Origin: Larkinella humicola
Lineage (GTDB): Bacteria; Bacteroidota; Bacteroidia; Cytophagales; Spirosomataceae
Direction: 5' to 3'
NCBI RefSeq assembly: GCF_008727875.1
Contig: NZ_VTWS01000002.1
Span: forward strand, 930,001-994,000
Length of the DNA stretch: 64,000 nucleotides
The notes beneath the pieces were generated by a model that searched no databases, had not been told where the DNA came from, and was given only the letters and a program-made list of their open reading frames with translations. A program made the translations under genes and the position numbers. Below, in pieces: positions 3,473 to 59,508 of the stretch; the stretch's first letter is position 1; each line of letters opens with the position of its first letter.

Positions 3473-3509
3473 TCACCCTGTCAGCGGTCACAGACCCTGA
3501 CAGCGGTGA
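3473..3509 (+). repeat. Bulged palindromic element, copy 1
   Basis: Arms TCACC/GGTGA enclose the stem CTGTCAG (3478-3484) / CTGACAG (3497-3503), an unpaired C, the inner stem GGTC/GACC, the loop ACA, and a second unpaired C on the right. It starts right behind the carB stop codon. The same architecture recurs at 3553, 7966, 8029, 55095 and 55248. Confidence 0.8.
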
Positions 3510-3552
3510 TTGTCCGGACAATGATGAGAACGGAAATAATCAATTATAAGCT

Positions 3553-3600
3553 CAGCGCCACCGCTGATCAGGGTCTTCGACCGCTGACAGGGTGGCGCTG
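3553..3600 (-). repeat. Bulged palindromic element, copy 2, inverted relative to copy 1
   Basis: Read on the minus strand it has 10-bp perfect outer arms (CAGCGCCACC and its complement), then CTGTCAG, an unpaired C, GGTC, the loop GAA, GACC and CTGATCAG. The last stem carries one extra T relative to other copies. Copies 1 and 2 face each other across about 45 nt, so the pair can also fold into one large hairpin behind carB and may help terminate it. Confidence 0.75.
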
Positions 3601-3694
3601 AATTTTAAGTATTTTATAATATCAGTAGAGCAACTGTTTAATCCGCTTTTGCGTTATATCTTTATCTCATAACCCGAACAGCCAGTCGTTCAGC

Positions 3695-3931
3695 ATGATT
3701 TTTAAATTCTTATTCGTTCTTCTGCTCCTGATTGCTTTTGTGCCGCCGGTACGACGCTTTTTCTTCTGGCTGCTGGTTGGCCGCCAACTTGCCAAAGAAC
3801 AGCGTAAAGCCAATGAGCGTTTCAACCAGGGCGGTCGCGAAGGCGAAACCCGCGTTTATACGACTACGCCCGGTGCTACCGACTCCAAGTTGAAAGGTGG
3901 CGAGTACGTGGATTACGACGAAGTGAAGTAA
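3695..3931 (+). CDS. DUF4834-type small membrane protein
   Basis: A 78-residue protein with one N-terminal hydrophobic segment (about residues 2-28, including FKFLFVLLLLIAF and FFFWLLVG), followed by a charged tail with KEQRKANERFN and an acidic end (VDYDEVK). This layout matches the DUF4834 family of small Bacteroidota envelope proteins, whose function is unknown. It stands alone between the palindrome pair behind carB and a convergent lipoprotein gene three bases away, so it is probably its own transcription unit. The family name is from recall; the membrane segment is seen directly. Confidence 0.7.
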   Translation: MIFKFLFVLLLLIAFVPPVRRFFFWLLVGRQLAKEQRKANERFNQGGREGETRVYTTTPGATDSKLKGGEYVDYDEVK

Positions 3932-3934
3932 CCC

Positions 3935-4351
3935 TCACGGCCTCACTTCCCGTTCTTTCTGGTACTTCACGGCCATTCCCCGCATGGAATATCCATTGAC
4001 GGTTGCCGAACTGTAATATTGATACCGAACAGCAATCAGCGCATCGGCCCCCAGTTTTTTCGCCTGCATCGTTAAGCGCGCCAGCAGCAGTTCTTTCTGC
4101 TCGATGTTGTTGCCCCGTTTCACCATGCGCCCCTTAATCGGCTCTTGCTGTTGCTGGGTCAGCGGCACTTCTTCCTTGTATTCCAGCCATTCCATTTCCG
4201 TAAAGGGCCGGTCAGGCTGCTGATTTTCGTAGAACACATCCACCGGATAATTGGGCGACATCGAAATCGGAATCGCCGGTCGAAAACACCCCACCAGACT
4301 GACTACCAGGAAAATTGTGCCTGTTAAACCGTATCTGCCTAACTTTATCAT
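3935..4351 (-). CDS. Lipoprotein with a small C-terminal alpha/beta domain (YbjQ-like)
   Basis: 138 residues from ATG 4351 (MIKLGRYG). The N-terminus is a lipoprotein signal, a hydrophobic run ending in VSLVGC, so the mature protein would be attached to lipid through that Cys. The second half reads KKLGADALIAVRYQYYS and then GYSMRGMAVKY, which resembles the YbjQ/heavy-metal-binding or DUF4156-like fold found in surface lipoproteins; this is a tentative match. The frame is open to 4372 because of a repeat region (MMNDECK), but those residues come from the heptamer repeat at the end of purN, so I prefer the inner start. It is co-directional with purN and starts 11 nt after purN ends, so it is probably co-transcribed with it. 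Function unknown. Confidence 0.65.
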   Translation of the reverse strand: MIKLGRYGLTGTIFLVVSLVGCFRPAIPISMSPNYPVDVFYENQQPDRPFTEMEWLEYKEEVPLTQQQQEPIKGRMVKRGNNIEQKELLLARLTMQAKKLGADALIAVRYQYYSSATVNGYSMRGMAVKYQKEREVRP

Positions 4352-4384
4352 TTTACATTCATCATTCATCATTCATCATTCTTA
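4352..4384. repeat. Heptamer tandem repeat (ATTCATC) at the purN 3' end
   Basis: Three to four tandem copies of the 7-nt word ATTCATC (AATGATG on the other strand) with a degenerate copy (TTTTACA) beside them. The repeat encodes the last residues (MMNDE) and stop codon of purN. Similar words form the hairpin at 16815-16892. Confidence 0.8.
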
Positions 4385-4961
4385 ACACCTTTTCCACCAC
4401 TTCCGGGTAATACCGGTGTTCCAGCACCTGCACTTTTCGGGCCACATCCTCCGGCGTATCAAACGGTTCGAGCGCGCAGGAAGCCTGAAAAATGATGTTT
4501 CCCTCGTCATAATGCTCATTTACGTAATGAATCGTGATCCCCGATTTGAGTTCTCCCGCTTCGACCACCGCTTCGTGTACGAAATGGCCGTACATGCCTT
4601 TGCCGCCGAATTTCGGTAACAAAGCCGGATGAATGTTGATCATCCGTTGAGGAAACGCTTTGACCAGCGCTTCCGGTATAAGCCACATGAAACCCGCCAG
4701 CACAATCAGATCAATCTCCTGTTTTTGAAGGAGTTCCACAATGCGGTTGGTTTCGTAAAACGTCTTCCGGTCGAACACCAGAACCGGCACATGGAGTTTT
4801 TGGTCGGGACCGAACCCCCGGCGCGCCCGTTCGATAATCCCGGCTTTCGGGTTGTTGGATAGGATCAACGTGACCTCAATGTCGGGATGATCCGTCAAAT
4901 ACCCGGCAATTTTCTCCGCGTTGGTTCCGGAGCCGGAGGCAAAAATGGCAATTCGCTTCAT
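4362..4961 (-). CDS. purN: Phosphoribosylglycinamide formyltransferase 1
   Basis: Cytoplasmic GAR transformylase: transfers a formyl group from 10-formyltetrahydrofolate to GAR in the third step of purine synthesis. The 199-residue length is typical. Visible motifs are the N-terminal nucleotide-binding loop IFASGSGTNAE, the catalytic INIHPALLPKFGG containing the conserved Asn and His, and the later YVNEHYDEGNII with the conserved Asp. Start ATG 4961 gives the usual MKRIAIFASG beginning. The last five residues (MMNDE) and the TGA stop lie in a tandem ATTCATC repeat, so the native C-terminus seems to have been replaced by repeat sequence. It is divergent from the ABC transporter genes across 74 nt, which should hold both promoters. 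Other purine genes in the window (purE, purK) are 12 kb away. Confidence 0.95.
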   Translation of the reverse strand: MKRIAIFASGSGTNAEKIAGYLTDHPDIEVTLILSNNPKAGIIERARRGFGPDQKLHVPVLVFDRKTFYETNRIVELLQKQEIDLIVLAGFMWLIPEALVKAFPQRMINIHPALLPKFGGKGMYGHFVHEAVVEAGELKSGITIHYVNEHYDEGNIIFQASCALEPFDTPEDVARKVQVLEHRYYPEVVEKVLRMMNDE

Positions 4962-5035
4962 GGATTGATCAAAATGGAACGCAATAACGCTACAAACCTA
5001 CGTATCTTTCGAAAAAAATTGATGATATTAGCCGT

Positions 5036-5662
5036 ATGCTTCAATCGCATCAACTGACCTTTTCGTACGCACCGACCAAACGATTCGCCTTCCCGGACAT
5101 CCGCTGCAACGACCGCGAAGCGGTTTTGATTCTGGGAAAATCCGGTACGGGCAAAACCACGCTGCTGCATCTGCTGGCGTTACTCCTTCGGCCGGAGAAC
5201 GGCTCGGTCACCATCGACCAGACCGACCTGACCCAATTGCCACCGGCCAAAACCGCTACCTTCCGGGCCGCTCATGTGGGCATCATCTACCAGAAACCGC
5301 ATTTCGTCAGCGCACTTTCGGTAATGGACAACCTCCTGCTGGCCAATTATCTGGCCAAAAACCCGCAGGATAAAAACCGCGCCCGCGAACTGGCCGCGCA
5401 TCTGGGCTTTGCCGATCACCTGAGCAAGAAAACGCACCAGATGAGTCAGGGCGAACAGCAGCGGGTGAGCATTGCGCGGGCCGTCATGAACAAACCGGGG
5501 GTCATTCTGGCCGATGAACCTACCTCCAGTCTCGACGACGTCAACTGCGCCCGGGTGGTGGCGTTGCTGCGCGAACAATCCGAGCAAATTGGAGCCAGCC
5601 TGATCGTGGTGACGCACGACCAGCGGTTGAAAGACGAATTTTCGAATCAGGTGATTCTCTAG
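5036..5662 (+). CDS. ABC transporter ATP-binding protein (LolD/MacB class)
   Basis: 208-residue ATPase that would power the permease encoded 6 nt downstream. Walker A is GKSGTGKTT (about residue 34), the signature is MSQGEQQRVSIARA, and Walker B is VILADEPTSSLDD followed by the switch His in VVTHDQ. The short length and the signature fit the LolD/MacB/FtsE class, which works with FtsX-like permeases rather than classical transport channels. There is no membrane segment, so it sits on the cytoplasmic face. Start ATG 5036 is followed by LQSHQLTFSY, as expected for the first strand. Substrate unknown; mechanotransmission on an envelope lipid, lipoprotein or export partner is an inference from the class. 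Confidence 0.9.
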   Translation: MLQSHQLTFSYAPTKRFAFPDIRCNDREAVLILGKSGTGKTTLLHLLALLLRPENGSVTIDQTDLTQLPPAKTATFRAAHVGIIYQKPHFVSALSVMDNLLLANYLAKNPQDKNRARELAAHLGFADHLSKKTHQMSQGEQQRVSIARAVMNKPGVILADEPTSSLDDVNCARVVALLREQSEQIGASLIVVTHDQRLKDEFSNQVIL

Positions 5663-5668
5663 AAACGT

Positions 5669-6901
5669 ATGAATCTCTTTAAAATAAGCTGGGCCAATCT
5701 GAAAGATAAACCGCTCAGCAGTTTCCTGAGTGGCTTGCTGATGACGCTGGGCATCACGATCATTTCGCTGTTGCTGCTGTTGAACAAGCAGTTGGACGAG
5801 CAGTTTTCCCGCAACGTCAAAGGCATCGACATGGTGTTGGGCGCGAAAGGCAGCCCGCTGCAACTGATCCTGTCGAGCATTTACCAGATCGATTCGCCGA
5901 CGGGCAACATTCCGCTGGAAGATGCCGAACGGCTGACCCGCAACCCGATGATCAAAACCGCCATTCCGCTGTCGATGGGCGATAGTTACAAAACCTTCCG
6001 GATCGTCGGGACGAACAAAAAATACGTTGATCACTTTGAAGCCACTGTCGGCCAAGGTGCACTCTTTCAGAAAGACCTGGAAGTAACCATTGGCGCCCGC
6101 GTGGCCGAAACGACTGGTCTGAAACTGGGCGACACCTTCGCCGGTTCGCACGGGCTGGACGGCAACGGCGAAGAACACGGCGAGACGAAATACAAGGTCG
6201 TCGGCATTTTCAATCCGAACAGCAGCGTCATCGACCAGTTGATTCTGACGCCTTTATCGAGTGTCTGGGCGATTCACGAGCACCACGAAGAACACGAAGG
6301 CGAGGAACACGAGGGCGAAGCACATACCGACGAAGACCCTGATCACGAAGCCGAAGCGCCCCGCGAAATTACCAGCATGTTGGTGAAGTTCCGGAATCCA
6401 ATGGGCATGATGGTGGCCCGGGGCATCAACGACAACTCTAAACTGCTGGCGGCTCTGCCCGCCATCGAAATCAACCGCCTGTTCGATTTGCTCGGCATTG
6501 GCGTCGATACCCTGCGCGGACTGGCGGTGGCCATCATGCTCATCGCCGGGATCAGCGTATTTGTGTCGCTCTACAATTCGCTGAAAGAACGCAAGTACGA
6601 AATGGCCCTGATGCTCTCGATGGGTGCTGGCCGAACACAACTCTTCGGTATGCTGCTCCTGGAAGGGTTGACGCTTTCCCTGATCGGTTTTTTGTTAGGA
6701 CTGGTTCTCAGCCGAATCGGATTGCTCCTGTTCTCCATGCGCGCCGAACGCAATTTCCATTACAGCTTGAACAACCTGAACATCCTGCCCGAAGAATGGC
6801 TGGTGCTGGGCGTCGCCGTCCTGATCGGTATTGTTGCCGCAGCACTTCCGGCTTTGGGTGTCTACCGCATGAATATTTCGCAGACGCTGGCGGAAGAGTA
6901 A
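5669..6901 (+). CDS. FtsX/MacB-like ABC permease with a His/Glu-rich periplasmic insertion
   Basis: 410-residue inner-membrane permease paired with the preceding ATPase. There is one transmembrane segment at about residues 17-39 (LSGLLMTLGITIISLLLLL), a large periplasmic MacB_PCD-like domain, and three more segments in the last 130 residues (around 285-305, 325-350 and 370-392), the usual FtsX layout. The periplasmic domain contains a striking run at about residues 201-230 made almost only of His, Glu, Asp and Gly (EHHEEHEGEEHEGEAH and more), which could bind divalent metals. It starts 6 nt after the ATPase stop, so the two are co-transcribed and probably translationally coupled. A role in metal-responsive efflux or lipoprotein traffic is a guess; the family has many substrates. 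Confidence 0.88.
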   Translation: MNLFKISWANLKDKPLSSFLSGLLMTLGITIISLLLLLNKQLDEQFSRNVKGIDMVLGAKGSPLQLILSSIYQIDSPTGNIPLEDAERLTRNPMIKTAIPLSMGDSYKTFRIVGTNKKYVDHFEATVGQGALFQKDLEVTIGARVAETTGLKLGDTFAGSHGLDGNGEEHGETKYKVVGIFNPNSSVIDQLILTPLSSVWAIHEHHEEHEGEEHEGEAHTDEDPDHEAEAPREITSMLVKFRNPMGMMVARGINDNSKLLAALPAIEINRLFDLLGIGVDTLRGLAVAIMLIAGISVFVSLYNSLKERKYEMALMLSMGAGRTQLFGMLLLEGLTLSLIGFLLGLVLSRIGLLLFSMRAERNFHYSLNNLNILPEEWLVLGVAVLIGIVAAALPALGVYRMNISQTLAEE

Positions 6902-6902
6902 T

Positions 6903-7014
6903 CAGTTTACAGTTTTCAGTATACGGTGCGGTTCCCCGCCGGGACTGACGCGAGCTACTATGAATGCGCCAGCCACCGTAAACCGAAAACCGTATACCGA
7001 AAACTGTAAACCGG
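6903..7014. repeat. Long hairpin with heptamer-phased arms (GTTTACA family)
   Basis: The left arm at 6903-6927 and right arm at 6989-7014 are near-perfect inverted copies and read as 7-nt words (AGTTTAC, AGTTTTC, AGTATAC). The region near the tip holds ACTGACGCG and AATGCGCCAGCCACC, which closely match the tip of the hairpin at 16247-16324. It fills the gap between two convergent genes and may act as a bidirectional terminator. Confidence 0.8.
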
Positions 7015-7018
7015 CAAA

Positions 7019-7951
7019 CTAACTCCCAAAAACCGCCTTCACTTCCTTTAAATCCTGCCGGTGGGCCGTCAGGGCGTCCATCGTGTTGGGCGACTGTTTT
7101 TCGATGCATTGTTCCAGCACCAGATGCGGATGAACACCCATGGCTTTTAGTTCTTTGGCCAGACGCGGGTAATCAATATCGCCATCGCCAAAGGTTTCCG
7201 CCCAAACGCCGTTTTTCGACTGGCGGAGGTGCAGTTCCGTGATGCGTTTTCCGTAGAGTTTCACGATGTCGAACAAAGCGATCTGCGAATTGCCCGAACC
7301 CCGGTAAATCCAGTGTACATCCAGGCAAAGCGACACATTTTTGGGATCGGTTCCCAGCATCATGTGGTGGAATTCGCGGGCAGCGTTGCGCATTTCGACG
7401 TCGTGCGTATGGTACGACAGCGTCATGCCCCGCTTCCGGAGTTCGGCTCCGAGCCGGTCCAGGTTGGCGGCTTGGGTGGCTAAGTCCACATCGGTTTTGT
7501 CCTCCCCACTCCCCCACTTGATCGGGCTGGGATTGGTCACCACCAGCCGCACCCCCAGCGGACGGGCCGCATCCGCAATGGCCGTTACCGTTGCCAGCGT
7601 TTTATCCGCTTCATCGGCCTTGTGCAAGGTGCTGTTGACATACAGCGAATGCATTTCCAGTTTGTGCTTTTTCAGCAAGGGTGCCAGCTTCTGGATTTCG
7701 TCTGCCGACGTAATCGACGGCTCATATCCGACAATACCCGATTTGGCAAAATCGGCCAGCGACGCATCCAAATCCGCCGACCAGTTGCGGCCCTGCCGTT
7801 GATAAAACGTATGCCAGGTATACTGGTTGCAGGCAATCTGCGGTCGCCCGGCGGCAGCGGTTTTTGCTTCGGCCACAGCGGTTTTGGTCAACGGAAGCAG
7901 CGCGGCCAAACCGGCCAGAGACTGTAAAAAAGTACGACGATCTGTGTTCAT
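7019..7951 (-). CDS. Exported sugar phosphate isomerase/epimerase-like protein (AP endonuclease 2 fold)
   Basis: 310 residues. The N-terminus MNTDRRTFLQSLAG is a twin-arginine signal (RRTFLQ) followed by a hydrophobic stretch and an Ala-rich cleavage region near 26-33, so the protein is probably exported folded. The rest looks like a xylose-isomerase-type TIM barrel (AP_endonuc_2): GIVGYEPS, HKLEMHSLYVN, YHTHDVEM, SLCLDVHWIYRGS and HLVLEQC carry the usual metal-binding His, Asp and Glu positions. Family members isomerise or epimerise sugars or inositol derivatives; many Bacteroidota members with Tat signals have no known substrate. The gene is convergent with the ABC permease gene and divergent from the M14-like gene, with two palindromic elements in the 197-nt gap upstream. 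Confidence 0.85.
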   Translation of the reverse strand: MNTDRRTFLQSLAGLAALLPLTKTAVAEAKTAAAGRPQIACNQYTWHTFYQRQGRNWSADLDASLADFAKSGIVGYEPSITSADEIQKLAPLLKKHKLEMHSLYVNSTLHKADEADKTLATVTAIADAARPLGVRLVVTNPSPIKWGSGEDKTDVDLATQAANLDRLGAELRKRGMTLSYHTHDVEMRNAAREFHHMMLGTDPKNVSLCLDVHWIYRGSGNSQIALFDIVKLYGKRITELHLRQSKNGVWAETFGDGDIDYPRLAKELKAMGVHPHLVLEQCIEKQSPNTMDALTAHRQDLKEVKAVFGS

Positions 7952-7965
7952 GGGTTTAGGGCGAA

Positions 7966-8000
7966 AACCCTGTCAGCGGTCGGAGACCCTGACAGCGGTT
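7966..8000 (+). repeat. Bulged palindromic element, copy 3
   Basis: Short arms AACC/GGTT enclose CTGTCAG (7970-7976), an unpaired C, GGTC, the loop GGA, GACC, CTGACAG (7989-7995) and a second unpaired C. It lies in the divergent gap before the isomerase-like gene. Confidence 0.8.
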
Positions 8001-8028
8001 AAACTTTTGGTTTCTTTGAGCAAGAATA

Positions 8029-8093
8029 TTGCGGTAACTTTTTCACCCCGTCAGCGGTTGAAGACCCTGACAGCGGTGAAAAAGTTACCGCAA
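8029..8093 (+). repeat. Bulged palindromic element, copy 4, with 19-bp perfect arms
   Basis: Perfect 19-bp inverted arms (8029-8047 and 8075-8093, TTGCGGTAACTTTTTCACC) enclose the element core: CCGTCAG, an unpaired C, GGTT, the loop GAA, GACC, CTGACAG and a second unpaired C. It is 56 nt before the M14-like gene start, where it could affect that gene's transcription or the 5' end of its mRNA. Confidence 0.85.
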
Positions 8094-16246: not shown

Positions 16247-16324
16247 GTTTACGGTTTACGGTTTATGGGTGGCTGACGCACGAATAAGAATGCGTCAGCC
16301 ACCCATAAACCGTAAACCGTAAAC
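16247..16324. repeat. Perfect 34-bp hairpin with heptamer-phased arms (GTTTACG) and CTGACGCA tip
   Basis: The left arm at 16247-16280 and right arm at 16291-16324 are perfect inverted copies with a 10-nt loop. Outer arms are 7-nt words (GTTTACG, GTTTACG, GTTTATG; a further GTTTACA-like word precedes them). The tip GGCTGACGCA matches tips at 6903-7014 and 16815-16892. It separates purE from the LysM gene. Confidence 0.9.
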
Positions 16325-16814: not shown

Positions 16815-18039
<1,225 letters not shown>

Positions 18040-31316: not shown

Positions 31317-31329
31317 AAAATAATAAAAT

Positions 31330-31421
31330 AATTATAAATGTAAAATGGCAAATATCAAATGTAAAAGTCGCTCATTTCCAGCATTTTTACATTTGATATT
31401 TGCCATTTTACATTTATAATT
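31330..31421. repeat. Perfect 37-bp hairpin with heptamer arms (AAATGTA) between convergent genes
   Basis: Arms 31330-31366 and 31385-31421 are perfect inverted copies with an 18-nt loop. Each arm reads as 7-nt words AAATGTA, AAATGGC, AAATATC, AAATGTA. It fills the gap between the oxidoreductase and dnaN stop codons. Confidence 0.92.
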
Positions 31422-31453
31422 AAAACCCTTAAGCCTGTCTGTCGGATCACCAA

Positions 31454-40737: not shown

Positions 40738-40834
40738 AGAATGATAAATTTAAAATGATGAACGCCGAATGCAAAAGTGCTGGATTGGGTAATACTTTTA
40801 CATTTAGCGTTCATCATTTTAAATTTATCATTCT
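40738..40834. repeat. 41-bp hairpin with heptamer arms (GAATGAT/AAATTTA)
   Basis: Arms 40738-40778 and 40794-40834 are inverted copies with 3 mismatches and a 15-nt loop. Words of 7 nt: GAATGAT, AAATTTA, AAATGAT, GAACGCC, GAATGCA, AAAGTGC. It ends 15 nt before the methyltransferase start codon. Confidence 0.9.
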
Positions 40835-53854: not shown

Positions 53855-55114
53855 ATGAAACGATATCTCACACTCCTGCTGGTCATGCTGTCGATTGCCA
53901 GCCGCGCCAATTCCATCCTGATTCCGATGGACGACCGCCAGAAAAACCACTTAAAGTCATACGGGATTGCCTATTTCGTTCTGAAAGCCGGACTGGAAGT
54001 CGACTGGCTGCTGAACTACCGGGGCGGGAGTTTCATGATCAAACACAGCCCGACCATCGAGACCGAATGCCGGGTTCGGGGCATTTCTTTCGAGATCATA
54101 TCGGATGCCGATGCCAACACCATTCAACAGCAGATTTCCAACCCGGACCTGAACATGGCGTCGGTCAAGCTGGTGTCGGCGGCCCGGATTGTGGTCTATT
54201 CCCCGATCAAGGTCAGCCCCTCCGAATTTGAAAATACGGATGCGGTTTTACTGGTGCTCAAATACGCCGAAATTCCGTTTGAGGTGGTGTATGACGAAGA
54301 AATTCTGAAAGGTGATCTGGCCAAATACGACTGGATTCACCTGCACCACGAAGATTTTACGGGTCAGTATGGCCGCAACACCCGCCGGATGTCGGCGGAA
54401 GATGTCAAGGCGCAGGAAGACATTGCCAAGAAATTCAATTACCCGAAAGTGTCCCAGATGAAACTGGCGGTTGCCAAGAAAATCCGCGATTTCTGCGCCG
54501 GGGGCGGGTATATGTTTGCCATGTGTTCGGGCGCCGAAACGTTCGACATTGCGCTGGCGGCCGAGGGCGTCGACATTGTGAGCAGCACCTACGACGGCGA
54601 CGGCATCGATCCCAAAGCGCAGTCGAAACTGGATTTTGAAAAAACCGTCGCCTTCCAGAACTTCACTCTCGAACTCGACAACGGCTACGGCGGCATGGCG
54701 TTCTCCGACATCAACAGCTCGGCAGGGCGGTTTGGCGGTGGCTGGGATCAACCCTCGGGCTATTTTAACCTGTTCAATTTCTCGGCGAAATGGGACATGA
54801 TTCCCGCCATGCTCGTTCAAAATCACGAATCGAACATCAAGGAATTCCACGGCCAGACCACGGCTTTTCGCAAAAGCACCGTCAAACCCAATGTGCTGGT
54901 AATGGGCACCAGCCCGTCCTCCGACCGCTACATCTACGGCGAAGTCGGCATTGGCCAATGGACGTTTTACGGGGGCCACGATCCTGAAGGCACGCGGGGC
55001 GGAGGCTGGCGAATGGCGACCGACCTGAATTTACACCCCAATTCGCCTGGTTACCGCCTGATTCTGAACAACGTGCTGTTTCCATCCGCCAAGAAGAAGA
55101 AGCGGAAGACGTAA
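53855..55114 (+). CDS. Exported protein with class I glutamine-amidotransferase-like core (often labelled asparagine synthetase B)
   Basis: 419 residues with a signal peptide (MKRYLTLLLVMLSIASRANS). The mature start ILIPMDDRQKNHLKSYGIAY and DWLLNYRGGSFMI are typical of a Bacteroidota family that is commonly labelled asparagine synthetase B, although neither the AsnB glutaminase nor the synthetase motifs are present. The middle contains GGGYMFAMCSGAETFDIALA (about residues 219-238), a nucleophile-elbow-like Cys as in class I amidotransferase or DJ-1/PfpI folds. The end (GQWTFYGGHDPEGTRGGGW) is conserved in the family. The substrate is unknown. The 3' end overlaps a palindromic element: the last codons (KKKKRKT) lie in its left arm. 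Confidence 0.75.
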   Translation: MKRYLTLLLVMLSIASRANSILIPMDDRQKNHLKSYGIAYFVLKAGLEVDWLLNYRGGSFMIKHSPTIETECRVRGISFEIISDADANTIQQQISNPDLNMASVKLVSAARIVVYSPIKVSPSEFENTDAVLLVLKYAEIPFEVVYDEEILKGDLAKYDWIHLHHEDFTGQYGRNTRRMSAEDVKAQEDIAKKFNYPKVSQMKLAVAKKIRDFCAGGGYMFAMCSGAETFDIALAAEGVDIVSSTYDGDGIDPKAQSKLDFEKTVAFQNFTLELDNGYGGMAFSDINSSAGRFGGGWDQPSGYFNLFNFSAKWDMIPAMLVQNHESNIKEFHGQTTAFRKSTVKPNVLVMGTSPSSDRYIYGEVGIGQWTFYGGHDPEGTRGGGWRMATDLNLHPNSPGYRLILNNVLFPSAKKKKRKT

Positions 55115-55171
55115 TTGCCCCGACAGCGGCCAACGGTCCTGTCGGCGGCAATTACGTCTTCCGCTTCTTCT
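55095..55171 (+). repeat. Bulged palindromic element, copy 5, with 25-bp arms reaching into the gene
   Basis: Arms 55095-55119 and 55147-55171 are perfect inverted copies. The left arm is the coding end and stop of the preceding gene, the right arm its inverted copy. The core reads CCGACAG (55120-55126), an unpaired C, GGCC, the loop AAC, GGTC, CTGTCGG (55139-55145) and an unpaired C. The stem change CCGACAG/CTGTCGG keeps pairing, and GGCC/GGTC is a G:T wobble. Confidence 0.88.
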
Positions 55172-55275
55172 GTATTCAGGCTGATTTTACGACAAACCGA
55201 ACCCTGACAGCGGCAATCACGTCTTCCACTTCTTCTGTATTCAGGCTGATTTTACGACAAACCGAACCCTGACAG
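55146..55275. repeat. Tandem 65-bp duplication between convergent genes
   Basis: 55146-55210 and 55211-55275 are directly abutting copies differing at two positions only. Each unit starts with CGGCAAT and ends with CCCTGACAG. Each contains an inverted copy of the 3' end of the upstream gene (first part) and an inverted copy of the 3' end of the hybrid kinase gene (last part). Confidence 0.92.
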
Positions 55276-55315
55276 GGCCTACGGCCGCTGTCAGGGTTCG
55301 GTTTGTCGTAAAATC
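55248..55315 (-). repeat. Bulged palindromic element, copy 6, with 28-bp perfect stem
   Basis: Arms 55248-55275 and 55288-55315 are perfect inverted copies including CTGACAG/CTGTCAG. The inner part is GGCC, the loop TAC, GGCC and one unpaired G at 55287, so the element is inverted relative to copy 5. The right arm contains the last eight codons and the TGA stop of the hybrid kinase gene. Confidence 0.9.
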
Positions 55316-58300
55316 GAGGCTTGTTGGAGCGCATTTTTCAATTCTTCAATCACGATCGGTTTGGCGATGTAGTCGTCCATCCCCGCGTGCAAACACGCTT
55401 CACGATCGTCGGCCATGGCGTTGGCCGTCATTGCAATGATGGTCGGTTGAGGCCCTGGCTGCTGGCGAATCCAGATGGTGGCTTCCAGACCGTTCACTTC
55501 CGGCATCTGCACATCCATCAGAATGACTTCGTAAAACCGCCGTTGCACCAGATCCAGCACCTCGGCGCCGTTTTGGGCCAAATGCGCCTGATAGCCCAGT
55601 TTACTCAGAATGTTGAGCGCCAGTTTCTGATTGGCCGGGTAATCTTCCGCGACCAGAATCTGCAGGGGATAGTCTTTGGAAAACTGATCCGACAGCGCGT
55701 GGTGGACCGCTTTGGCAGCAACCGTCCGGGGTTCGACCGATTGCTTCAGTTGTTTTTGCACCACATCAAAAAGCTGTTGCTGCTTGACGGGCTTGGTCAA
55801 AACCGCCGAGAAAAGTTCCGGATACGATTTGCGGCTTTCTTCACCGATGGAACTCAGCAGAATAACCGGCAGCGTCAGGGTTCGCCCGCGGATGGCCCGC
55901 GCCAGTTGCACCCCATTCATTTCCGGCATTTGCATGTCTGTAATAACCAGTTGAAAAGGAACTTCCTGGTTCATGATTGCCAGGGCCTGCTTGCCCGACG
56001 AAGCCGCTACCACCACGAGTTTCCACTGCTCAAGGTGGGCTTTCAGAATGGTCAGATTCGTGGGGTTGTCATCGACGAGCAAAACCCGTTTCCCGTCGTT
56101 TTCACCGGTATTGAAGAAAATATACTGCCGCTGGGCCTGCTGGCTGATCCGACATCGAATCGTGAACGTGAAGGTCGTTCCCGTTCCGATCTGGCTATGA
56201 ACCGTAATTTCCCCGCCCATGAGCTTAACCAGCCGCTCGCTGATGGCCAGCCCCAGGCCCGTACCACCATACCGCCGGGTCATCGACGAATCGACTTGTG
56301 AAAACGCTTTGAACAGCCGTTGCAGTTTGTCTTCCGGAATGCCGATGCCCGTATCCCGAACCCGAAAAACCAGTTCCAGTTCCTGATCGCTGATCCGCCG
56401 TTGCAACCCAATGCTGACAAACACTTCGCCCCGCTCGGTAAACTTGATGGCATTGCCCACGAGGTTGATCAGAATCTGACGCAGGCGCAGGCTGTCGCCG
56501 ATGACCTGTGTCGGCACCTGGGGATCCAGTTCATACACCAGGTCCAGCTCCAGTTCGGCGGCTTTGCTGGCAAACAGATCGAGGACGTCTTCCACACAAT
56601 GGCGCAAATCGACGTCCTGGAGTTCCAGTTCCAGACTCCCGGATTCGATCTTGGAAAAATCGAGAATGTCGTTGATCACCCCCAGCAGGTTGGTTCCGCA
56701 CTGGTGAATGGTGTCGACGTATTCGTGCTGCTCTTCCGACAGTTCCGTCTCCTGCAACAAATAGGTCATGCCCAGCACGCCGTTCATGGGCGTCCGGATT
56801 TCGTGGCTCATCGTGGCCAGAAAGACGCTTTTGGCCTGATTGGCTTTTTCGGCTTCTTCCCGTGCGTGTTTTTCCTGCAACCGTTGTTCGTGGATTTCTT
56901 CTATGAGCACCTGCAAATGTTCCGATTGGGTCTGAATTTCTTCCGACTGGTACAGCACTTCGGCAGTTCGTTCGCCAACCTCTTTTTCGAGTTCCTTCTT
57001 TTGGTTTTCGATGGTTTTTACCCGATGCCGGTACAAGCCATAGGCTCCCAGCAGCAAGGCCAGCACCAGGCCGGTCCGAAACCACCAGGTAGCCCAGAAG
57101 GGCGGGGTAATGACAATCCGGAGCGACGTGCCCCGCTCATTCCAGACGCCGTCGTTGTTGGATCCCCTCACCCGGAAAACATACTCGCCGGGGTCCAGGT
57201 TGGTGTACGTGGCCATCCTGGAATGACCGGCGTAAATCCAGCCCCGATCAAACCCCTCCAGTTGATACGCATACTGATTTTTTTCGGGCAGGCTGTAATT
57301 CAAAGCCGCAAAAGTTACCGAGAACATCGACTGCCAGTAGGCCAGCGTGATGAGGGTGTTTTCATCAATGCTTTTTCGAAGCAGCGAATCCGGAGCGCCA
57401 ATGACAACGGGTTGATTGAAAAGGTGGAAATGGGTGATAAAAACCGGTGGAATCGCCGAATTATCGCGCAAACTATCGGGATCAAACGCGTTCAGGCCGT
57501 TGGTTCCGCCAAAGAAAAGTTCACCCAGCCGCCCCTTGAACACCGCCCTCCGGTTGAACGAGTTACCCTGCAAGCCATCGCTGACGCTGTAGTTCCGGAA
57601 GGTGCCGGTCCGCGGATTAAACCGGGAAAGCCCCTGGTTGGTGCTGATCCAGAGGTTTTTCCGACGGTCTTCCACCAGCCCCTGAACCACCTCGTTCGGC
57701 AAGCCCTCCGGCTGACGGTATACCGTAAAGGCTTGTGCTTTGGCATTGAATTTGTTAAGCCCGCTGTCGGTGCCCACCCACACCGTACCGTTGGAATCTT
57801 CGTAAATGCTGTTGACCAGATTATTGCTCAAACTTCCGGGCACATTTCGGTGGTACCGGTACCTCGTAAAGGTGTTGCTCCGGCGATCGAACCGGTTTAG
57901 CCCACCGCCTTCCGTGCCGACCCAGATGGTGCCGCTCCGGTCGCAATACAACGCCCGAATAACCGCGTGGCTCAGGGTGCCCGGTTGGGTCGGATCAGGC
58001 CGGTAATGCGTAAACAAACCGGTTTTCTTATTGTAACGGCTCACCCCGGCGCCAAGCGTCCCGAGCCACAGGTTGCCTTCATGGTCTTCGGTAATGGCGC
58101 AAATGCTTTCGTGGCTGATGCCATCCGGGCCGTCACTCCTCGGAAAATTGACAAACTCACCCGGTTCTTTTTCCCACCGGCTCAGTCCGCCCTTGTAACT
58201 GCCCGCCCAAATCCGGTGATCGCGGTCTTCGAAAACGCACATCACGAAGTCGCTACCGATGCTGCGCGGGCGGTCAGGGAGGTGCATAAACCGGGTAAAC

Positions 58301-59508
58301 TGATTCGTTTTGCGGTCCAGGCGGTTCAGTCCCCCGCCGTCCGTCCCCATCCAGAGCTTCCCTTCAGCATCTTCCAGAACGGACAATACATTGTTGTTAC
58401 TGAGGCTGTTGGGATTGTTGCGATCTTTTTCATAGCGTTCAAATTTCCGGGGTTCACGGTCGTAAAAATTGATTCCTCCGCTGTAGGTGCCGATCCACAT
58501 ATCGCCTTTTCGATCCCGGCAAATGGCATAAATCGAGCCATTGTTCAAGCCTTCGCTGTTGGTTTCGCTGAAGGGATAGCGGATAACCGTAGCGAGATCC
58601 CTGCTCAGAATGCTAATGCCGCCGTTCCGGGTGCCCATCCACAGATCTCCCGCGTTGCCTTCTTCCAGCGAAATGACGTCGTTGTGGCCAATGGTGTTGA
58701 CATCGGTTTTGCTGTGTTGAAACCGGGTAAACGTTTGCTGATCGGCATTCAACAGGTTCAATCCCCCACCCTCAGTGGCCACCCAGATCCGGTTTCGTGA
58801 ATCCTGCAAAAGGGCCGTTGTGTTATTGTTGCTTAGCGAGCCCGGGTCGGCGGGATTGTTGACAAAGTGCCGGAAAGTTTGAGTCGTCGCGTCGAACAGG
58901 TCCAGCCCTCCTCCGCCCGTTGCCGCCCAGAGCCGTCCTTTCGCATCGACCAGCATATCGTAGATAAAATCATTCCCCAGACTCCGGGGTTTGGCCGCAT
59001 CGTGGGTGAAATGGGTGAAGGATTTCCGGGTCGGGTCGAAGCGGTTCAAACCGCCACCGTACGTGCCGACCCACAGCATTCCCTGACGATCCTCCGCAAT
59101 CGAAATCACCTGGTTATGACTCAGGCTGTTGAGTTTATCGGACGTCCGCTGAAAGCTGACAAAGGTGTCGGTTTCCCGGTCAAAAAGATTCAACCCGCCG
59201 TCTTCCGTGCCAACCCACAGGCGACCTTTCCGGTCTTCATAAAGGGCCCGAATAAAATTATGACTCAGGCTGGTCGCTTTTTTCGGGTCATTCCGGTATA
59301 CGGTGAAGGTGTAGCCATCAAACCGGTTTAAACCGTCCTGCGTGCCAAACCACATAAATCCCCGCTTGTCCTGTAAAATACAGGTTATATTGTTTTGGGA
59401 TAGCCCTTCATTGGTGGTAAGGTGTTTAAACCGTATCGGAACGGCCTGGGCATCAAATGGCTGAACCTGCAACAGGAATAGCAATAGAACAGCACATATT
59501 ACTTTCAT
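55291..59508 (-). CDS. Hybrid histidine kinase with two-propeller sensor and two receiver domains
   Basis: 1405 residues. A signal peptide is followed by 14 Reg_prop repeats (for example [32 protein letters not shown]), enough for two seven-bladed propellers, to about residue 690. Next come a Y_Y_Y domain (about 735-800, [16 protein letters not shown]), one transmembrane helix (about 806-828) and a coiled coil. Then HisKA with [15 protein letters not shown] (His near 901), HATPase_c with [14 protein letters not shown] and [12 protein letters not shown], and two receivers with phospho-acceptor Asp in [12 protein letters not shown] (near 1190) and [13 protein letters not shown] (near 1332). Classical Bacteroides HTCS proteins end in an AraC DNA-binding domain; here there is none, so a separate response regulator must carry the output. 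The 3' end lies inside a palindromic repeat. Confidence 0.94.

Follow-up and report, generated by a model that had tools for sequence, protein, structure and literature searches.

How does a short palindromic element come to lie between inverted arms that differ from one locus to the next? The question is posed by six copies of a bulged hairpin in a 64-kb stretch of the 7.86-Mb genome of Larkinella humicola (G000:C13:930001-994000; the window). An earlier note on this DNA had proposed that only the centre of the element is conserved, and that the element as a rule copies its ends from its surroundings. Comparison of orthologous sites in related species leads us to a different reading, to which we give a probability of roughly 0.78. 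The element would belong to a family resembling the repetitive extragenic palindromic (REP) sequences, with a mobiliser that we have not found, and its hairpins would repeatedly have seeded palindromes by template switching.

The core has a consensus of approximately 33 nt, RCC-CTGWCAG-C-GGYC-NNN-GRCC-CTGWCAG-(C)-GGY, forming a bulged hairpin. It reads ACCCTGWCAGCGGYC-NNN-GRCCCTGWCAGCGGT, and is therefore also a direct repeat of the 14-nt ACCCTGWCAGCGGT with a period of 19 nt. An array of this period lies at G000:C20:82976-83058, and Larkinella sp. C7 carries a single half-unit where L. humicola has copy 1. Scanning the window with a 27-base pattern and allowing up to three mismatches gives exactly six matches, against none in each of 100 shuffles, confirming the six copies of the earlier note. 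They are listed below with an associated duplication.

Copy 1: 3473..3509 (core 3478-3503), plus strand; ACC/(C)GGT, arms of 5 bp in total and no true long arm, z -4.95.
Copy 2: 3552..3601 (core 3564-3590), minus strand; 1-nt insertion in the stem, 11-bp arms at 3552-3562 and 3591-3601, z -6.99.
Copy 3: 7967..7999 (core 7970-7995), plus strand; ACC/(C)GGT plus 1 bp.
Copy 4: 8029..8093 (core 8048-8073), plus strand; 19-bp arms at 8029-8047 and 8075-8093, the right arm being the inverted left flank.
Copy 5: 55095..55171 (core 55120-55145), plus strand; 25-bp arms at 55095-55119 and 55147-55171.
Copy 6: 55248..55315 (core 55269-55294), minus strand; outer bulge C absent, 21-bp arms at 55248-55268 and 55295-55315.
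Tandem duplication of period 65: 55147..55276 (55147-55211 and 55212-55276), plus strand; read from the sequence, with orthologs compared.

All six copies fold as bulged DNA hairpins (z from -4.95 to -14.33), so that the shared architecture described in the note stands in outline, with an extra stem base in copy 2 and no second unpaired C in copy 6 as departures from it. Copies 1 and 2 are the partners of an inverted doublet. Copy 5 has as its left arm the 3' end of the open reading frame (ORF) upstream, 53855-55114, stop codon included, and as its right arm the inverted copy of this. The right arm of copy 6 lies within the downstream ORF, 55291-59508 on the minus strand, at its 3' end; the arms of this copy reach 28 bp if counted through the stem. 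The duplicated stretch contains a half core, ACCCTGACAGCGG, at 55201-55213, together with 12 nt of filler and the inverted copy of the gene end. Arms had been ascribed to every copy. The long ones do copy their surroundings, but copies 1 and 3 have only the conserved 3 bp plus a further 1-2 bp.

We assembled a working set of 218 copies, comprising 68 from L. humicola, 45 from L. punicea, 44 from L. terrae and 61 from others, where all but the L. humicola copies are a sample and statistics pooled over copies include orthologous ones. Arm length was counted beyond the stem with mismatches penalised, and an arm of at least 9 bp was called long; by this count copy 2 scored short, owing to its stem insertion. 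Long arms occur in 40 of the 218 copies (18%), compared with 0.15% after the right flanks were dealt out anew. The remaining 178, the majority of copies, have arms shorter than 9 bp and end at RCC...CGGY. The stem follows ACC or GCC in 177 of 193 copies and is itself usually followed by (C)GGY; beyond RCC and GGY the flanks vary from locus to locus. Conservation therefore extends past the centre of the element, contrary to what the note had claimed. Nor are copied ends a rule of the element: most copies have no long arms, and at individual sites these appear to have been added later. Long arms are found in 20/68 copies in L. humicola, 14/45 in L. punicea, 2/44 in L. terrae and 0/18 in Bacteroidales. 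Of the 20 in L. humicola, 10 have an arm that extends into an ORF at its 3' end, by crude ORF calls.

The origin of the arms can be followed at orthologous sites. We compared L. humicola with Larkinella sp. C7 (G002), L. terrae (G003), L. punicea ZZJ9 (G006), L. rosea (G008) and the further Larkinella relatives G001, G004, G005 and G007, searching all eight for the flanks of six armed sites. At the sites compared L. humicola is nearest to L. punicea ZZJ9 and sp. C7, whose flanks diverge from its own by 3-9%, with L. terrae and L. rosea further away.

At C14:440560 the element stands at one gene end in the same position in L. humicola, sp. C7 and L. punicea, and 3 nt further on in the same frame in L. 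terrae and L. rosea. It is absent from G001, G004 and G005, while in G007 the flanking genes are apart and no element is seen. Only in L. humicola are there 21-bp arms, the second of which repeats the coding end in inverted form. With five species having the element, three lacking it and one having arms, the arms postdate the insertion. The 21-nt copy stops at CCGCT, where a second element begins. By eye, the element at this site (L057 1560) and its orthologs supplies the stop codon (CCC TGA) of the upstream gene and alters the last residues of that gene in five species.

The region 55095-55315 contains one armless core in sp. C7 and a half element in L. punicea. G001, G004 and G005 have no element, although one may have left a decayed trace in G005; the gene end of L. 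terrae, G007 and L. rosea is element-free too and adjoins a different neighbour. L. humicola alone has the order gene end, core, inverted gene end, filler, inverted next-gene end, core, next-gene end, and additionally holds the 65-bp tandem duplication.

At window position 8029 the site is unsplit in G001, G004, G005 and G007, and L. terrae and L. rosea hold an armless variant with a long loop. L. humicola and sp. C7 (L111) have the same arms, with the core inverted in C7, while L. punicea keeps the right arm and has a shortened left arm. The right arm is the inverted left flank for 19 nt, after which the old flank resumes at CGCAA. This match is present in the site of G007, and the other unsplit sites share 3-4 nt. 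The 5-nt junction matches here and at C14:440560, both read by eye, are candidate points of return to the template.

At C13:801677 arms are present in L. humicola and L. punicea. L. rosea has an armless element in the opposite orientation directly after the same stop codon, and L. terrae an armless one approximately 7 nt further on; there is none in C7, G001, G004, G005 or G007. The C17:360220 site has an armless core in C7, a 22-bp arm pair with three mismatches in L. humicola, and a perfect but different 25-bp pair in L. punicea, the difference extending to the coding side. The element is absent from G005, and the other relatives have one flank only or flanks that are apart. Since the coding-side arm of L. 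punicea (L329) differs from that of L. humicola and C7 along with the other arm, homogenisation of the arms may have rewritten the last codons of a gene. At C11:226490 the arms of L. humicola and L. punicea are unrelated, L. terrae has an armless doublet, and C7 has no core and a single occurrence of the right-arm sequence; no element is found in G005, L. rosea, G001, G004 or G007.

Other long-armed copies add to this. The L. terrae ortholog of C2:62903 is armless, and the C7 ortholog of C15:73946 has arms of 7 bp. At C11:1295286 the arms of L. humicola and L. terrae are alike, with matching changes and no armless relative shown, so that these arms are older or were made twice. L. punicea has the same 9-bp arms at C17:256681. 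Both arms have changed in concert at C14:477524 and C17:360220 (L. humicola and L. punicea) and at C11:1738904 (L. punicea and C7). Comparison was confined to loci already collected for C11:564710, C11:1295286, C1:49752, C14:477524, C13:1003213 and C17:256681. C14:553090 gave no ortholog in the single locus tried, and C19:199201 and C16:66761 are L. humicola long-arm copies outside the ortholog comparison; none of the three bears on ancestry. The earlier note had looked to orthologous gaps with and without the element. Sites free of the element do exist, and at the sites followed in this way the arms are lineage-specific and would be later than the insertion.

As judged by comparison of sequences, then, the arms are lineage-specific inverted copies of the flanks, the two arms change in concert, and cores invert. 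Later inverted copying of flanks, concerted arms and core flips together are the signature of template switching at an imperfect inverted repeat, and no special rule of transposition is needed. We infer from these patterns that polymerase template switching is responsible, and in what order it proceeds. Bulged hairpins would be dispersed between Larkinella genes, singly or in inverted doublets, by a mobiliser that we did not find. At its new site, such an imperfect hairpin would misdirect DNA polymerase, and the nascent strand could fold back on the stem, copy approximately 10-28 nt of the opposite flank as an inverted repeat, and rejoin the template at a short downstream match. The product would be a long, locus-specific and near-perfect palindrome, whose arms might later be homogenised, and whose core might be flipped, by the same process. 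Template switching is described as making quasi-palindromes more perfect in E. coli (PMC7202029), as creating and maintaining hairpins (PMC8794818), and as homogenising the arms of inverted repeats and inverting the spacer (PMC8604942).

Arms might instead be made during insertion, by a foldback-primed mobility reaction that copies the target flank each time, as the rule of the earlier note would have it. The arms are indeed inverted copies of target flanks, and C7, a close relative, lacks the element as well as the arms at C13:801677. We consider this improbable, given the 178 copies with arms shorter than 9 bp, the presence of arms in one of five element-bearing species at C14:440560 and two of four at C13:801677, and the concerted change of arms, which happens after insertion.

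It is just as improbable that selection for a strong 3'-end hairpin, acting as a terminator or stabiliser of mRNA, built the arms by compensatory point mutations. The genomic setting would suit such a role. Scoring 200 copies, we find 79 between tandem genes, 65 between convergent and 11 between divergent ones, with 28 falling within ORFs by crude calls and 17 at the edge of a contig or locus, and half of the long-armed L. humicola copies overlap a gene 3' end by the crude calls noted above. Selection may well decide which hairpins persist, although the long hairpins may also be neutral. Yet in one lineage arms of 19-28 bp appear as complete blocks, where both sides show indels and changes of several bases; they are missing in C7 or L. 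punicea even though the flanks have diverged by only 3-9%; and by eye there is no T-run after the arms at 8029 or 55095.

Least probable is insertion of the element into the loop of hairpins already present, such as terminators, with arms older than the core: some REP families do sit inside conserved palindromes (PMC3733652), the window has four core-less long hairpins with arms of at least 18 bp, and a long hairpin of unrelated sequence occupies the C14:440560 gene junction in G005, but the idea appears largely refuted at the sites examined, where, in the eight relatives, no element-free ortholog of the six armed sites whose flank was read holds the L. humicola arms as an empty palindrome, C7 has the right-arm sequence of C11:226490 once only, the C14:440560 element is armless in four other species, and arms include coding 3' ends repeated in inverted form on the other side.

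Several observations weigh against template switching from the hairpins. All of the evidence is a comparison of fixed differences, with no mutation seen in the act, and because the sites were picked for their arms in L. humicola the count of derived arms is not a rate. At C14:440560 sp. C7 lacks the old right flank, so that an armless right side is not fully shown there, although L. punicea, L. terrae and L. rosea show it in full. The direction of change at 55095 rests on parsimony, and C7 may instead have lost its arms by recombination between two cores; the 12-nt filler in this region has no traced source. Long arms are commoner where the outer bulge C is absent (17 of 41 such copies, against 23 of 157 having the bulge and with 20 unclassed copies omitted; pooled Fisher p = 4e-4), as expected if the 3' side is then copied from the 5' side. 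However, the pooled counts include orthologous copies, and within single genomes the association is weak: 8/14 against 6/29 in L. punicea (p = 0.035), 0/4 against 1/6 in sp. C7, and 7/14 against 13/47 in L. humicola, which is not significant (p = 0.19). The cores of long-armed copies are no more decayed than those of short-armed ones (p = 0.14, 0.45 and 0.38), and arms therefore do not simply grow with age. Finally, L. terrae has many copies and few long arms (2/44), for which we have no explanation.

The hairpin itself is strongly supported by compensatory changes in the stem. Among 88 distinct cores 95.6% of cells pair, against a shuffled mean of 88.9%, and covariation is 0.216 against 0.104. 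Two-sided changes are found in 72 cells compared with 28.7 in shuffles (2.5-fold), a value reached by none of 500, so that the note was right that stem changes keep pairing. Four pairs show a two-sided change at all, which is not an unusual number (156 of 500 shuffles). The search pattern left two W positions free, and over the 218 copies these are T-A in 116, A-T in 89 and neither in 13. Nearly invariant pairs weigh little because copies were chosen by closeness to the consensus, and the signal is carried by the W and Y/R pairs. The note had staked its rule on compensatory changes and on the lack of conserved ends; the former are present, and short conserved ends are present too.

At up to three mismatches the L. 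humicola genome has 72 matches to the core pattern and none to a reversed control, where a few of the 72 are one place matched on both strands or overlapping array units. At up to one mismatch the pattern occurs in 12 of 119 genomes, L. humicola included. Five of the eight other Larkinella have it, with 4 to 65 matches in the genus, and G001, G004 and G007 have no match at this threshold. Among the matches listed in the scan of named genomes are L. terrae, L. punicea, L. rosea and sp. C7, and, outside the genus, Arcicella, Flectobacillus, another Spirosomataceae metagenome-assembled genome (MAG), Paludibacter and two Bacteroidales MAGs. Outside Larkinella the family is sporadic in Bacteroidota. 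A stricter 31-base exact pattern was found in one of 395 genomes of the phylum, L. humicola, in a draw that contained no other Larkinella. Searches of plasmids and phages with the 35-nt consensus were negative at E 0.01, and Rfam gave nothing at gathering score in the window. L109, L170 and L266-L268 show a variant of the core with a long loop, for instance CTGTCAGCGCCGGGCCGTCG...CGGTC...GACCCTGACAGCGG.

Neighbouring copies are commonly paired. Within 180 bp 57 of 61 pairs are inverted, 46 as '+-' at 26-143 bp apart and 11 as '-+' at 12-28 bp. Partner cores are identical in 17 of 50 pairs from L. humicola, L. punicea and L. terrae, orthologous pairs kept in, compared with 5.6 expected and reached in none of 5000 draws.

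We searched for a mobiliser using PF01797 (Y1_Tnp) in L. humicola and 19 other genome records (18 distinct, since G509 and G018 are one MAG). All matches in L. humicola lie outside the window, in agreement with the note's finding of no REP-associated transposase there. The note had further suggested looking for a co-occurring RAYT-like gene, and this is not borne out: none of 49 Y1 loci (47 distinct, from 55 PF01797 matches) has a core with up to five mismatches within approximately 1.5 kb, or less at contig ends. A looser pattern gave a single five-mismatch match in L059, and L205 has a lone half site. One core-bearing Bacteroidales MAG, of completeness not stated, has no PF01797 match. Comparing 424 ORFs near copies all against all, we saw by eye no recurrent transposase-like group among the 25 largest groups, with no family search made. 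An unlinked Y1 enzyme could act in trans.

Other repeats lie nearby. Long perfect palindromes without a core occupy 16247-16324, 16818-16892, 31329-31422 and 40738-40834 of the window, with arms of 34, 22, 38 and 28 bp. The first two have a common inner GCTGACGCA motif, and the arms are built of GTTTACGG-, GATGAAT- or AAATGTAAAATG-like repeats. Such core-less hairpins suggest that palindrome growth in the genus may exceed the core family. In G005 (L283) the unrelated long hairpin at the C14:440560 junction stands where five species carry the element. A second dispersed palindromic repeat, GTTTACAGTTTTCAGTATACGGT...CTGACGC...GCGCCAG...ACCGTAAACC, lies at 6897-7024; among the matches listed there are dozens in G002, G003, G005, G006 and G008, and none beyond orthologous genes in G001, G004 and G007. 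A third family is a CCCCTAAATCCCCTAAAGGGGACTT palindrome of approximately 90-100 bp (L055, approximately 1676-1804), for which the matches listed include dozens in both L. punicea and L. terrae. In place of the gap at 3473-3640, L257, L259 and L260 hold approximately 0.8-1.5 kb with two small ORFs, by eye candidates for an antitoxin-like and a PIN-type toxin-like protein.

Template switching at a core might also turn a single core into an inverted doublet, making such sites 'palindrome nurseries'. We regard this extension as rather unlikely, though the pattern flank, core, inverted flanks, core, flank is seen at 55095-55315 and perhaps at G000:C15:73891-73971. If true, REPIN-like doublets and rewritten gene ends could arise with no transposase. 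More generally, template switching from these hairpins would link REP-type repeats and template-switch mutagenesis, which are usually separate fields, and a palindrome family could mimic 'ends copied from surroundings' with no special rule of transposition. The many orthologous sites in close species would be a natural record of how long hairpins originate, are homogenised and flip, and of the copying and change of gene 3' ends. In the open-licence literature we found nothing that joins 'repetitive extragenic palindromic', 'template switching' and 'inverted', a link that may still be published, and nothing that combines 'Larkinella' and 'palindrom'.

How does the family compare with known systems? 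Miniature inverted-repeat transposable elements (PMC3733652) are likewise small, non-coding and dispersed, but the Larkinella element lacks their conserved 15-30 bp terminal inverted repeats. The resemblance to REP and REPIN families (PMC3733652, PMC3116915) is closer: a short-loop hairpin of 20-40 nt in tens of mostly intergenic copies, compensatory stem subfamilies, and inverted doublets with a spacing of 20-100+ bp. Like these families, the element avoids divergent gene pairs and often occurs in inverted doublets whose partners match, so that copied ends do not set the element apart from REP in the way the note supposed. It differs from them in a stem foot of RCC / CGGY in place of a GTAG/GGAG or CGTC tag (PMC3733652), in having no RAYT adjoining the core in the loci examined, in the internal 14-nt direct repeat, ACCCTGWCAGCGGT twice, and in locus-specific long arms on 18% of copies (approximately 30% in two species). 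The atypical secondary structures of TnpA-Y1 subclass 2.6 (PMC6006769) are also non-canonical REP-like hairpins in Bacteroidota with genomic copies. These are described as flanking their own Y1 gene, and in this respect differ from the Larkinella core with its 0/49. The inverted copy between direct flanks at 55095-55315 is like small inverted triplications and origin-dependent inverted-repeat amplification (PMC13334657, PMC4689423), which are listed for cancer and yeast genomes, whereas here tens of bases are involved, in a bacterium. Quasi-palindrome template switching (PMC7202029, PMC8794818, PMC8604942) shares the inverted copying of arms, homogenisation, spacer inversion and one-step formation of stems. 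The papers cited describe it for reporters, for RNA genes and for coding inverted repeats of yeast; in Larkinella the seed is a dispersed repeat family, and the flank that is copied often includes the end of a gene.

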